IMG/VR virus record: IMGVR_UViG_3300025674_000183
Coordinates: 1-33,828 of that record
Length of the DNA stretch: 33,828 bases
Origin: a virus
Direction: 5' to 3' (one strand)
In this document: one piece after another, positions 4,527 to 10,439 of the stretch
Numbering within the stretch: position 1 is the first letter of the stretch
Layout: each line of letters begins with the position of its first letter
The notes under the pieces: model-generated
The model's input: the letters and a program-made list of their open reading frames with translations, nothing else
The model's database searches: none
What the model was told of the DNA's origin: nothing
Made by a program: the position numbers and the translations under genes

Positions 4527-5559
4527 TTACTCCCCATTCGGGTGGTAAGTCTGATGAGTTTAACCACCATGATTTTGGAAACTTACCTGTGTGTGCAGGG
4601 CATTCATCAACTGCTTTTGCAGCACACTTAAAGTCTGGTGACTTCTCGGTTAGTTTACTTTTTCTGTTATCAAACACCTTGCCTGTACAAAAAGGACATT
4701 TAAGGTCTGTCTTGATATCATTTTGTTGTTGTGTTTTTTCCACAACACCTCCTAATATTCCTGATACCTTAGTTATAAGGTCATCATCGTCATCTACTTT
4801 ATTAGCAGTAGAAGATAATCCAAGCTCTATTTTAGCTACATAATCATCTATCTGCTTATTACTCCATTGAGATTTATCGGGATACTTCATGACTTTTTTG
4901 TAGTTATCTGCTAAGTCTAAAGCAAACACTTGTGTCTTTTCGTCATACCCCTCCATAATCCTGTCAATGGTGTCATCAATAAGTTTGACTTTACCATTAT
5001 CGGTATGTGTAGAGGTATCGTTAAAAGGTGCTTCCCCTTCTGATACTTCCTCAATAGGTTTGATTGGTACAGGTTCGGACTTGTTCTCTTTTCTACGCAT
5101 GTCAACCTTTGTCACCATAACATTGTCGGTGTCTGGGTCACTCATAGTAGCTAGAGGTTGTGCATTATGTTCTTCCTCAGTTGTATCTGAACCCGACCAT
5201 AGCTCAACACCTAAACCAAAACGCATACAAGCACGTTTAAAAGCGTCACTCTCTGCATCTTTTAGATTTGTACCATCGTTGTGTTTAGGACTGTCTAGTT
5301 TAAATGTGTCAACGTCTCCGAAGCCATCATAACTACCCATGTCCTCAATAGTTATAGTACCTTTAGCACCAACTATTCTTTTCTCACCTTTATGTGTACC
5401 GTATATAGGTTCACATGTCCATGAGTATTTTACTTCGCTATCACGTAGTCTTTCTACGTAGATACTGTGTGGAACGTAGTCGCCAAACTTCCCTGCAGGT
5501 GCTTTTTTAACAACTGACTTGGGAAATGGGGACAACAATTTAACTGGCTTTGTAGCCAT
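4519..5559 (-). CDS. Rad52-like single-strand annealing protein
   Basis: The start MATKPVKLLSPFPK is chosen because AAAGGAG precedes it by seven bases; the open frame extends to 5598 into hairpin A. In the 346-residue product, residues 25-125 contain YVERLRDS, a Gly-rich loop (GSYDGFGD) and DAESDAFKRACMRFGLGVELW at about 101-121, the hallmark of Rad52/DdrA-type annealing proteins that pair single-stranded DNA. An acidic, low-complexity linker follows. The C-terminus has a likely zinc finger (C288, C291, C312, C320, H323). It probably supports recombination-dependent replication or repair together with the nucleases encoded downstream. Confidence 0.8.
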   Translation of the reverse strand: MATKPVKLLSPFPKSVVKKAPAGKFGDYVPHSIYVERLRDSEVKYSWTCEPIYGTHKGEKRIVGAKGTITIEDMGSYDGFGDVDTFKLDSPKHNDGTNLKDAESDAFKRACMRFGLGVELWSGSDTTEEEHNAQPLATMSDPDTDNVMVTKVDMRRKENKSEPVPIKPIEEVSEGEAPFNDTSTHTDNGKVKLIDDTIDRIMEGYDEKTQVFALDLADNYKKVMKYPDKSQWSNKQIDDYVAKIELGLSSTANKVDDDDDLITKVSGILGGVVEKTQQQNDIKTDLKCPFCTGKVFDNRKSKLTEKSPDFKCAAKAVDECPAHTGKFPKSWWLNSSDLPPEWGVSA

Positions 5560-7317: not shown

Positions 7318-8796
7318 TTACCTTACTACATTTAATTTTCTAGCGAAAGACTTAACCTCATCTATGTCTGCTAGTCGCATGATGTTATATTTATTACATG
7401 CTTCCATACATTGTTGTAGATTTTGCTTGCCTGTCCCATTAAATCCTACAACTTGCATATCAGATACCCACAATCGTCTAGGTGTTTGTTTGCCTAACCA
7501 TTCAAGTGCAGGTAAGTCAATGTAATTACCACCACCAGTATGCTCGTGTAAGTATTCATCATTAACACGTCTACCATTTCTAGCAATAATACGTATGTCA
7601 CCTAATTTCTTATTGTTGTTCCAACCATAATAGTTGTACATTGCAATAGTCACAGCAGGTACTTCATTCATGACATCTAGTATGTCTTGACCGTCAAAGT
7701 TCATAGAACCACTAGCGTCAATCAGGATAGTTCCACCGTATGTATTATGTTTACGTGTGAATATCTTTCTATCTACTGTGTATCTGTGAATTTTTCTAGG
7801 TGCAACACCTTTGTCTTTAGCAACATTTGTGTAACCTGTACGAATTTTGTTACTCATGTTGATAGTTAACGCAGGTTTATGTAATGTATAATCTGCCCAT
7901 GAAGCTTCACTATTATCATAACTGTAAATGATTTCGTTATAGTCATTCTTGTTACGGTCTTTAAGCATAGATATATTCTTAGGTGAACTAAGTTCAGCTT
8001 CTTCATAAGCATCCTCTAAATCACCTGTTTCTTCTAATGCTTCCTCAAGTTTTTCTTTGTCATCATCAGACAAACGCACATCGTCTTGTGGTTTTCCGTC
8101 AAACAAATCAAATAACTCAGACAACTCTACTGCTAGTTTTTTAACTCTAGCCCATGCAGGTTTATGTGTTATACCTGCAGATTTAGTACTTGTATGTACC
8201 ATGCGTAGATGAAAGTAAGATATTTTATCCATAGCAAACTCTAAATCTTGAACACGGCTGTGTTTAAGAGTATGACTATTTATCTCATCTGTAATAGCTT
8301 TTACAAAAGAAACATACTCATAGCCATACTCGTTATATTTTATACGTGTATAACTTGAAGCAAAATTACTTTTGTACCATATTTTTTCAATGAAATAAAT
8401 ACAAGCTAATCCATACTTGACTAAGTCTGTAATACTACCTTTCTCTACAAGTTGTCTTGTGAAGGCGTCAACCTCATCTAAACATGTATGTGGTGCATTC
8501 ATAGGAATACCTGCATACGTTAGTCTGTGATTGACACGTATTTCTTCTAGCAAATGTATAGCTTCTTCATGAACGCCTTTGGGAATTTTACCAAAGCTTT
8601 TAGGTGACCACTTGACATGACCTAACTCATGTCGTCTGATTACACGTCCGTGATTTACACCACACTTGTGACACTCGTCATCTAGAGGTACGTACATTTT
8701 CCTATTGGTCATGTCCGTACGAGGTTGTTTAGTATCTTCGTATACTTCCCAATCTCTTTCTCCTGTGACTATTTCGGGGAATGGTCTGTGTCGCAT
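7318..8796 (-). CDS. Metallopeptidase-like and VWA-domain protein, partner of the AAA+ ATPase
   Basis: In this 492-residue protein the N-terminal part has CHKC (42-45), then RRHELGH (54-60), a zinc-protease HExxH motif, followed by EEIRVNH (84-90) that could give the third ligand. An acidic linker (about 235-270) precedes a von Willebrand A domain with MIDAS DASGS (360-364), TGGGNYIDLPAL (420-431) and VSD (444-446). This layout resembles the putative metallopeptidase plus VWA-like proteins and CobT-like partners of MoxR/CobS ATPases, which couple ATP hydrolysis to remodelling of a target. It starts at a TAATG overlap with the ATPase gene. Target and protease activity are unproven. Confidence 0.8.
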   Translation of the reverse strand: MRHRPFPEIVTGERDWEVYEDTKQPRTDMTNRKMYVPLDDECHKCGVNHGRVIRRHELGHVKWSPKSFGKIPKGVHEEAIHLLEEIRVNHRLTYAGIPMNAPHTCLDEVDAFTRQLVEKGSITDLVKYGLACIYFIEKIWYKSNFASSYTRIKYNEYGYEYVSFVKAITDEINSHTLKHSRVQDLEFAMDKISYFHLRMVHTSTKSAGITHKPAWARVKKLAVELSELFDLFDGKPQDDVRLSDDDKEKLEEALEETGDLEDAYEEAELSSPKNISMLKDRNKNDYNEIIYSYDNSEASWADYTLHKPALTINMSNKIRTGYTNVAKDKGVAPRKIHRYTVDRKIFTRKHNTYGGTILIDASGSMNFDGQDILDVMNEVPAVTIAMYNYYGWNNNKKLGDIRIIARNGRRVNDEYLHEHTGGGNYIDLPALEWLGKQTPRRLWVSDMQVVGFNGTGKQNLQQCMEACNKYNIMRLADIDEVKSFARKLNVVR

Positions 8797-9515
8797 TATT
8801 CTGCTTCACTTAACTTGATAGCGTCTAATAGTTCTTCTGCTCTATCGCCAAAGACTACTAACCCTGCTGTATCAATGTCTAACCCTTGCTCTTGTAACTT
8901 GAAGAACTCATCCCATTTACGAATAGAGATACGTTCACCCTCATCAGTAGATAAAGATGTATCACTAATAGCTTGATGCCACGCTTTTGGAAATTTTTCC
9001 AATGCTTTAGGATGTATCTCATCTATGTGTATAGCAACAGGGAACCTGTCTTTGAGTGCTTGTGGTAAGCTCTCTGGGTCCGCGTTAGACGTAGCTATCA
9101 CAGTAAACCCTTCGCTTGGACGAACAGTTTCTTTTTCTTTGTTGTTGAGTGTGATACCTGCAATATCTTTGTCATCTAATATGGCATGTAAGAATGTCAT
9201 AGCGTCTGGTGAAGCGTGGTCTATCTCATTGATAACCAATCTACCACCGTTACGCCATGCTTGTACAGCAATACCGTCACTCCATTCAAACTGTTGATTT
9301 TCACCTATCTGATAAAAACCTTGTAAGTCTGCACTTGTACTTTCTTCGGTCATGACTAACTGAAATACGTTAGCGTCACCGTTTATGTTCAATGGTGCAT
9401 TTTGTTTTACAGCAGAGTAAGTCTTGCCTGTACCCGGAGGTCCGTACAAAAGTACTCTATCTGATTTTCCTACTACGTAGGACACTAAGTCCCAACACGT
9501 TTGTTTTTTGCTCAT
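8796..9515 (-). CDS. MoxR/CobS-like AAA+ ATPase
   Basis: This 239-residue single AAA+ module has Walker A GPPGTGKT (25-32), Walker B LVINEIDHA (93-101), sensor 1 ATSNAD (141-146) and an arginine-finger-like LKDRF (154-158). The sequence TSADLQGFYQIGENQQFEWS between the Walker motifs is typical of MoxR and CobS relatives, which work as hexameric remodelling motors with VWA partners. The gene is coupled to the metallopeptidase/VWA gene by TAATG, and TTGGAG precedes its ATG. Phage genes of this kind are often labelled cobS, but there is no cobalamin pathway here, so a protein-remodelling role is more likely. Confidence 0.85.
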   Translation of the reverse strand: MSKKQTCWDLVSYVVGKSDRVLLYGPPGTGKTYSAVKQNAPLNINGDANVFQLVMTEESTSADLQGFYQIGENQQFEWSDGIAVQAWRNGGRLVINEIDHASPDAMTFLHAILDDKDIAGITLNNKEKETVRPSEGFTVIATSNADPESLPQALKDRFPVAIHIDEIHPKALEKFPKAWHQAISDTSLSTDEGERISIRKWDEFFKLQEQGLDIDTAGLVVFGDRAEELLDAIKLSEAE

Positions 9516-9518
9516 TTG

Positions 9519-9806
9519 TTATTCTCCAATCGGTACGAACCTAATGTATAAGTCCACACCCTCGTTGTTTTTTCTTTGCTTACACTCAAAAGAACCTTTG
9601 TCTTTCAAGTGACTTATGTTTCGTTGTTGCATACTCCGTATGTTTCCGACAACACCACTACTCCACTTAGGTAAAGTAGCGACTACGTACCACATGTTCG
9701 GGTTATTTAACAACACCTTAACTTTGTCGTCTGACAAAATTTTAGGTTGCTTTCCACCTTTGCGTATTGGTGGTGGCTCTTGTCTAGCCATACCGTTAGG
9801 TAACAT
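9519..9806 (-). CDS. Hypothetical basic protein ahead of the AAA+/VWA pair
   Basis: The 95-residue frame starts MLPNGMARQEPPPIRKGGKQ with AAAGGGGG seven bases upstream. A basic Pro-rich N-terminus leads to a compact region (VKVLLNNPNMWYVVATLPKW, then IRSMQQRNISHLKDKGSFEC and LYIRFVPIGE) that could be a small winged or SH3-like domain. The three-base gap to the ATPase gene suggests they are co-expressed. It may be a substrate or adaptor of the ATPase; this is inference from position only. Confidence 0.65.
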   Translation of the reverse strand: MLPNGMARQEPPPIRKGGKQPKILSDDKVKVLLNNPNMWYVVATLPKWSSGVVGNIRSMQQRNISHLKDKGSFECKQRKNNEGVDLYIRFVPIGE

Positions 9807-9835
9807 AAGTTACCCCCTTTCTGATACTTGCGTAT

Positions 9836-9900
9836 CTCACAGTCCAGATTTGGGCATGAAACAAACAATACTTTCGTATATATTGCATCTGAACTGTAAG
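9836..9900 (-). ncRNA. Structured leader hairpin with GNRA loop
   Basis: The arms CTCACAGTCCAGAT (9836-9849) and ATCTGAACTGTAAG (9887-9900) pair over 14 positions on the minus-strand RNA with two G-U pairs, which would be A-C mismatches on the plus strand. Inside, ATAC/GTAT closes a GAAA tetraloop when read on the minus strand. It precedes the 95-residue gene in the direction of transcription, ending about 30 bases before its ATG, so it may control translation of that gene and the AAA+/VWA genes. Confidence 0.5.
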
Positions 9901-9911
9901 CTACGTACGTA

Positions 9912-10020
9912 TAGATAGCTTGTAACACACATCAACTTGTAAATTATCCTATACCTTTACAAGTGCTAGTAGATTTTCTATATAGGTCAAATCGTACCTC
10001 TATGTGCTACAAGCTACCTA
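9912..10020 (-). ncRNA. Large arm-bounded RNA element, unit 1 (cloverleaf-like)
   Basis: In minus-strand RNA, the arm TAGGTAGCTTGTAGCACATA (10020-10001) pairs over all 20 bases with TGTGTGTTACAAGCTATCTA (9931-9912), with three G-U pairs that would be A-C mismatches on the other strand. Within it are AGGT/ACCT (9984-9999), TAGA/TCTA (9970-9980) and the perfect 9-bp hairpin ACTTGTAAA/TTTACAAGT (9935-9943 with 9956-9964). The layout is a four-helix junction. It is not a tRNA: it has no T-arm consensus and no anticodon arm. Confidence 0.6.
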
Positions 10021-10088
10021 CATAACTTGGGTTTACTCTTTACAGAGGCAAGGTTCAGTAAGTTCAAATTTCCCCTCGCTAACCCTTA

Positions 10089-10171
10089 TAGATAGCTTGT
10101 AACACACAGTTGGTGGCTTACACAATTAAGTCTTAGCAGTTTACCCAATGCTATGTGCTACAAGCTACCTA
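10089..10171 (-). ncRNA. Large arm-bounded RNA element, unit 2
   Basis: Both 20-base arms (10171-10152 and 10108-10089 on the minus strand) are identical to those of unit 1, again giving a 20-bp helix with three G-U pairs. The interior is shorter and unrelated, with CTTA/TAAG (about 10117-10130) as the clearest small hairpin and a possible TTGG/CCAA pairing. Sixty-eight bases separate the units. A third fragment TAGATAGCT at about 10196-10204 matches nine bases of one arm. Arm identity with interior divergence suggests either selection on the helix or duplication followed by interior replacement. Confidence 0.6.
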
Positions 10172-10208
10172 CTGTACATAAAGGGGTAATGTACGTAGAT
10201 AGCTATAT

Positions 10209-10439
10209 TTATTGCGTTTCTTTTGTGTGTTTACGCCACACTTTTTCGTTTACAACTACGGTGTTTAAGTCCGTAAACGTCTTTTGCTTGGGTGATTTAC
10301 TATCACCGTATGTAATAGTTGTCTTGCCGAATGCACGACTTACTGCTATTACAGGTACAAACTTATTCCCTTTCGTAAGTAATTCATCGGTCTCTTTAAC
10401 GTCTTTAGCGTAACGAGACCAACCATGTTTGTGAATCAT
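10209..10439 (-). CDS. Hypothetical small protein
   Basis: This 76-residue protein starts MIHKHGWSRYAKDVKETDEL with AAAGGGA six bases before the ATG, which follows hairpin B by about 12 bases. The middle (FVPVIAVSRAFGKTTITYGD then LNTVVVNEKVW) looks like a small beta-rich domain. GKTT is not in a P-loop context, so I do not call it an ATP site. It is followed by the roughly 400-base structured gap. Function unknown. Confidence 0.65.
   Translation of the reverse strand: MIHKHGWSRYAKDVKETDELLTKGNKFVPVIAVSRAFGKTTITYGDSKSPKQKTFTDLNTVVVNEKVWRKHTKETQ

Follow-up and report, generated by a model that had tools for sequence, protein, structure and literature searches.

What is the role of two RNA elements that share identical arms, enclose unrelated interiors and sit side by side among the early genes of a phage? 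The window analysed here is the entire 33,828-base stretch of record IMGVR_UViG_3300025674_000183, a tailed-phage genome or a fragment of one. It encodes a terminase, an SU10-type capsid protein, an exonuclease, a single-strand annealing protein (SSAP) and an AAA ATPase, and its early genes run leftward from ~12.9 kb to ~1.7 kb. The host is likely an actinobacterium, because the capsid protein is nearest to those of Actinomycetota phages (34% to Mycobacterium phage Bernal13); the capsid relatives come from 25 phage records, nearly all of them actinobacterial by host or name. The two units belong to a string of RNA elements flanked by two small genes (Table 1). The 95-aa protein encoded downstream belongs to an unannotated family present in 30 of the 119 contigs collected first; it has no Pfam match, and its AlphaFold model is confident (pLDDT 86), with no relative found in the PDB. 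The 492-aa protein encoded further downstream carries HELGH and DASGSM (VWA MIDAS-like) motifs; together with the ATPase it follows the RNA string in about half of those 119 contigs.

Table 1. Features of the RNA string and its neighbours in the window, listed in the order in which they occur on the minus-strand RNA
Feature	Position	Strand	Details
76-aa gene	10209-10439	-	immediately upstream of the string, on the same strand
Small hairpin before unit 2	10174-10194	-	GUACAU-UACCCCUUU-AUGUAC, C-rich loop
Unit 2	10089-10171	-	same arms as unit 1 (10171-10152 and 10108-10089), interior 43 nt
Linker between units 1 and 2	10021-10088	-	68 nt, type with GAACCTTGCC...ACCCAAGTT; the length class joins units elsewhere too
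Unit 1	9912-10020	-	20-nt arms (10020-10001 and 9931-9912), interior 69 nt
Third, diverged hairpin	~9905-9831	-	directly after unit 1; ACGTAGCTTACAGTTCAGAT...
Shine-Dalgarno sequence of the next gene	9813-9821	-	AAAGGGGG
95-aa early gene	9519-9806	-	directly downstream of the RNA string; start codon at 9806
AAA (MoxR/CobS-like) ATPase, then 492-aa protein	7318-9515	-	downstream of the RNA string

The boundaries of arms and interiors put forward in a sequence-only reading of the window are exact, and so is the pairing that it described: on the minus strand the arms pair at 20 of 20 positions, 17 of them Watson-Crick and three G-U, where the plus strand has A-C. Four arm matches occur within the window against 0.08 expected. 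The minus-strand folding z-scores are -6.7 for unit 1 and -5.7 for unit 2, with none of 200 shuffles as good, and the plus-strand values are weaker (-3.95 and -1.95); the 402-nt stretch of the whole string scores -6.9 on the minus strand against -2.9 on the plus strand. The three hairpins drawn inside unit 1 by the same reading come down to two in the minimum-energy fold. The third hairpin of the string has relatives in 12 further contigs in which the arms are changed and the pairing is kept. The loop of the small hairpin ahead of unit 2 is UUACCCCUUU and could, in the predicted fold, pair with the Shine-Dalgarno sequence of the next gene. The 5' arm, UAGGUAGCUUGUAGCACAUAG (10020-10000 and 10171-10151, minus strand), has UAG at positions 1, 5, 12 and 19, which places stop codons in all three frames.

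The element is far from being a peculiarity of one genome. The exact 20-mer of the 3' arm is found in at least 119 IMG/VR contigs, against an estimated ~0.1 by chance, and further IMG/VR scans brought the catalogue to 375 units in 200 contigs. To gauge prevalence, contigs were selected solely for encoding the 95-aa downstream protein, 62 of them with 4 kb of upstream sequence. A unit lies within 4 kb upstream of the gene in 43 of the 62, permuted arms giving none, and within 4 kb downstream in 2 of 42. The eight antisense detections in this sample reflect the near-palindromic nature of the arms, and at least five of the 19 negative contigs carry a unit too diverged for the filter. None of 84,980 GTDB genomes of bacteria and archaea contains the degenerate (R/Y) arm 20-mer, and no unit was found in INPHARED (cultured phages) with unit 2 or its surroundings as query; two phage-like MAG contigs with a gene for the 95-aa protein, one labelled Gammaproteobacteria and the other Actinomycetota, do contain diverged units. 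The unit-bearing phages are a large uncultured aquatic group, common in aquatic metagenomes.

The relatives make it possible to ask whether the stem is maintained as such. In 60 distinct arm pairs 97.3% of the cells are paired and 16 of the 20 pairs have changed on both sides. Two-sided compensated cells number 70, compared with 10.9 after shuffling (0 of 500 shuffles reach 70), and none of the slid-arm controls comes near the observed covariation. When arms are picked by sequence alone, there are 92 two-sided changes, of which 84 pair and 8 do not, so the minus-strand helix first read from two copies is borne out by its relatives. The variant cells in this set comprise 52 G-U and 10 A-C, where arm shuffling gives 81 and 40, a strand bias in which transcription and orientation along the genome axis are inseparable because all early genes point one way; a hairpin of single-stranded DNA would leave similar G.T/A.C traces. 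Judging from this pattern of change, the stem is a conserved helix under selection. Its outer pairs 5-11 are nearly invariant and its inner pairs 12-17 vary freely with compensation; the conservation of sequence beyond pairing, with all three G-U pairs kept, suggests recognition by a factor.

Within this helix the interiors are highly diverse. The arms, used as a query against viral metagenome contigs, led to 277 distinct interiors of 9-242 nt, usually 30-110 nt, which at a clustering threshold of 68% identity (58% being too lax) form ~115 sequence families in ~200 related contigs. A recent duplication with interior replacement, one of the origins suggested for the window, is too narrow an account: its two interiors are two of the ~115 families that different phages share, that of unit 1 recurring in L019, L045 and L072 and that of unit 2 in L106. 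Another suggestion, exchangeable cassettes, fares better. Among 142 pairs of units with flanks homologous on both sides right up to the unit, 84 have the same interior and 58 unrelated ones (for example L069 and L113, flanks 98 and 96%, or L126 and L130, 96 and 89%), and in 374 pairs the interiors are at least 75% identical with flank homology undetectable on either side, the pairs in both counts not being independent events. The 154-nt cargo of L093 reappears in L217, a MAG contig, where the outer arms around it are different. Since unrelated interiors can occupy one and the same junction, and nearly identical ones lie between unrelated flanks, the units are, on the evidence of these alignments, exchangeable cassettes swapped between genomes.

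Two DNA-level explanations have to be weighed here. A MITE-type mobile element moved via its terminal inverted repeats would likewise combine such repeats with a variable interior and be present or absent at the same junction. It is highly improbable, as the arms are imperfect as DNA (A-C on the plus strand) yet pair perfectly as RNA across ~200 contigs, the copies number one to five per genome and always lie in one early region, and the inner arms co-vary with each other. The second is a folded single-stranded DNA site for recombination or replication with the interior as a passenger, reminiscent of the integron attC site, a strand-biased hairpin with conserved ends and a variable middle that is tied to cassette exchange. 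The units share all of these traits with attC; cassettes are exchanged at the arms, the phage has an SSAP and an exonuclease, and DNA hairpins, too, tolerate G.T wobble. However, the swapped piece lies inside the hairpin and not between hairpins, and inspection of the arms (GTTACAA) by eye does not reveal the attC core boxes GTTRRRY/RYYYAAC. RNA is favoured over a DNA site by the location of units 10-30 nt before start codons, by linker loops rich in C that could pair with Shine-Dalgarno sequences (as predicted in the window), and by T-arm-like cargos and a tmRNA-like domain beside one unit. A folded DNA site is of low probability, and weaker than the cis-acting element discussed below.

The arrangement of the strings bears on how the RNA may work. 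Of the 201 strings with 400 nt on each side, 68 hold two units, 20 hold three to five and 113 a single one, so that a switch between units, as envisaged from the two copies in the window, is not a general rule. Units sit between early genes, typically starting 30-110 nt past the previous stop, and about half of those that are last in their string end 10-30 nt ahead of a start codon supported by an SD. The 129 unit-to-unit spacings are mostly 31-130 nt, and the linkers are often hairpins themselves: the type GUARGAG-stem-CCCUGUU-stem-RACYGAA has 52 occurrences, in which the stems change, 48 of them standing before a 5' arm and 45 after a 3' arm, and C-rich loop motifs occur within 75 nt before 37% of units against a background of 3.4%. 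Contig L040 has, between a unit and a gene (5415-5494, minus strand), an 80-nt tmRNA tRNA-like domain (RF00023, 52.4 bits, cut-off 47). This domain is without a tag-coding part, its inner region being a 9-bp stem with the loop TTAATCCCTTTT; the acceptor stem retains the G3-U70 pair and the 3' end is CAA, which suggests a phage 'mini-tmRNA'.

The main rival to an RNA that carries a cargo is a cis-acting element of mRNA processing or stability, whose stem would be cut or bound and would separate or protect the early mRNAs, the interior being mostly filler. It agrees with the location of the units between early genes and immediately ahead of Shine-Dalgarno sites, with a helix length near two turns, and with the loose relation of unit and gene, in which any cargo works with any gene and a given junction can gain or lose units. 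Of the downstream gene families, the commonest (42 units) has 24 cargo families in front of it, one cargo family (12 copies) stands before 7 gene families, and a single gene junction holds zero to three units across contigs; as junctions without any unit exist, no single unit is essential. The early genes of T7 likewise have RNase III sites between them, hairpins in a polycistronic phage mRNA, but the units here have a much longer, near-invariant helix and large exchangeable interiors. RNase III has little sequence requirement, whereas the outer 11 pairs and the three G-U pairs are nearly constant. Moreover, cargos recur nearly unchanged in unrelated places and the one cargo family tested has internal compensatory change, neither of which is expected of filler. 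On balance, a cis-acting element is rather unlikely.

The cargos themselves deserve a closer look. In the family tested, FAM 0, two-sided compensated cells number 27 against 6.5 after shuffling, part of them in the inner arm; going by these changes, its internal helices are kept and the cargo is under selection of its own. Folded without the arms, cargos reach mean z-scores of only -0.73 and -0.78 on the two strands, and values so modest and strand-independent mean that many cargos may be weakly structured. Antisense 14-mers between cargo and phage genes were found in 42 families, which is not above the controls (reversed 41, complement 31). A T-arm-like hairpin is present in 8 of 171 representative interiors (0.3 expected) and in 4 of 115 families (0.07 expected), and in L018, L099 and L125 inspection by eye suggests a second, D-arm-like hairpin. 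Anticodon-loop mimicry showed no enrichment in the cargos once T-loop matches were set aside, and was rejected as a general cargo rule. These features touch on the idea of decoy or anti-defence RNAs, in which the fixed stem would bind one factor of host or phage and the variable part would evolve against diverse host-encoded nucleases or translation-targeting defences. The early expression region, the hypervariable and exchangeable content and the few mimics of tRNA parts (T-arm hairpins and the 80-nt tmRNA tRNA-like domain) are in keeping with such a function. Set against this, tRNA-like features occur in only ~4 of 115 families and anticodon-like hairpins lack independent enrichment, and we regard this explanation as distinctly improbable.

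The reading that we prefer, with a probability of roughly 45%, is that of a conserved RNA clamp which presents, and perhaps excises, exchangeable structured RNA cargo in early phage transcripts. At the level of sequence, the helix with its conservation and strand bias, the diversity of the cargos, their exchange at the arms and the position ahead of start codons are established. Each unit would be an RNA element of a leftward early polycistronic transcript, and the nearly invariant helix of 20-24 bp would serve as a generic clamp that presents the structured cargo and might free it, for example via a double-strand RNase. Related phages would swap cargos by homologous recombination at the identical arms, presumably carried out by the phage's own annealing protein, an SSAP being encoded together with an exonuclease. 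Since the cargo does not follow the adjacent gene, it most likely has a trans-acting role, or one independent of that gene, possibly as a small RNA, decoy or scaffold. A bolder version, possible if doubtful, is a phage-wide 'RNA cartridge' system in which related phages trade more than 100 kinds of small trans-acting early-region RNA in a standard clamp. Exchangeable gene cassettes in phages are well known, and such a system, if true, would be the RNA counterpart of exchangeable anti-defence genes; to our knowledge, exchangeable RNA cassettes inside one standard RNA stem have not been described. If the cargos act in trans, they would make up a large and unexplored repertoire of phage RNAs that possibly serve host takeover or counter-defence. 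The 20-base arm provides a simple search handle, and arm compensation and cargo swap are clear tests.

The clamp and its cargo match no known RNA family. In agreement with the sequence-only reading, which knew of no fitting RNA family, Rfam 15 at the gathering cut-off gave no match in the window, and its sole match in 33 related loci is the tmRNA-like domain outside the units of L040; a permissive scan of positions 9700-10400 gave sub-threshold matches only. ARAGORN, run on the window and 20 loci, found no complete tRNA or tmRNA, the likeness to tRNA within cargos being limited to T-arm-like parts, and no published description of this arrangement was found in a literature search outside of which most subscription papers fall. 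TIGR-Tas systems, which are likewise carried by phages, also string together RNA units that combine constant pairing parts with variable ones; they have a Nop-domain protein, repeats of 8-12 nt, spacers of 9-12 nt and 5-15 units (PMC12045711). The units described here differ in having 20-nt arms, interiors of 9-242 nt and strings of 1-5, and the Nop domain PF01798 was found in 0 of 14 phage genomes, control genomes being positive. The Y RNAs of Ro60 (TROVE), including YrlA, have conserved paired ends around a variable part that may hold a tRNA-like module. This likeness extends to the phage units, which differ by their dozens of unrelated interiors; a phage-encoded TROVE/Ro protein (PF05731) was detected in 0 of 14 phage genomes.

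A partial resemblance is seen to the ssNA-helicase RNA (RF03070), whose short hairpin and GUAGC-x-UGUAGCA tail align with the linker hairpin and the 5' arm in every one of the 30 records tested, with E values of 0.002-0.24 per record; none of these records reaches the cut-off of 41.5 bits (best 21.4). The RF03070 model is without the 3' arm and the cargo, and neither its consensus tail nor true ssNA-helicase RNAs were found in any IMG/VR contig; the motif may be a piece of a related element. Other hairpins recur as well. A sub-lineage without canonical units (L257, L259, L260, L263, L266-L269 and L272) has other hairpins at fixed places, such as TATCACTTGTCTGTCC...GGACAGACAACTGATA. Lastly, a hairpin of the form AGTAGG-n-GGAAACGCT, with a changing stem and constant inner bases, occurs in L072, L082, L110, L179 and other interiors, spanning several unrelated cargo families and at least one linker.
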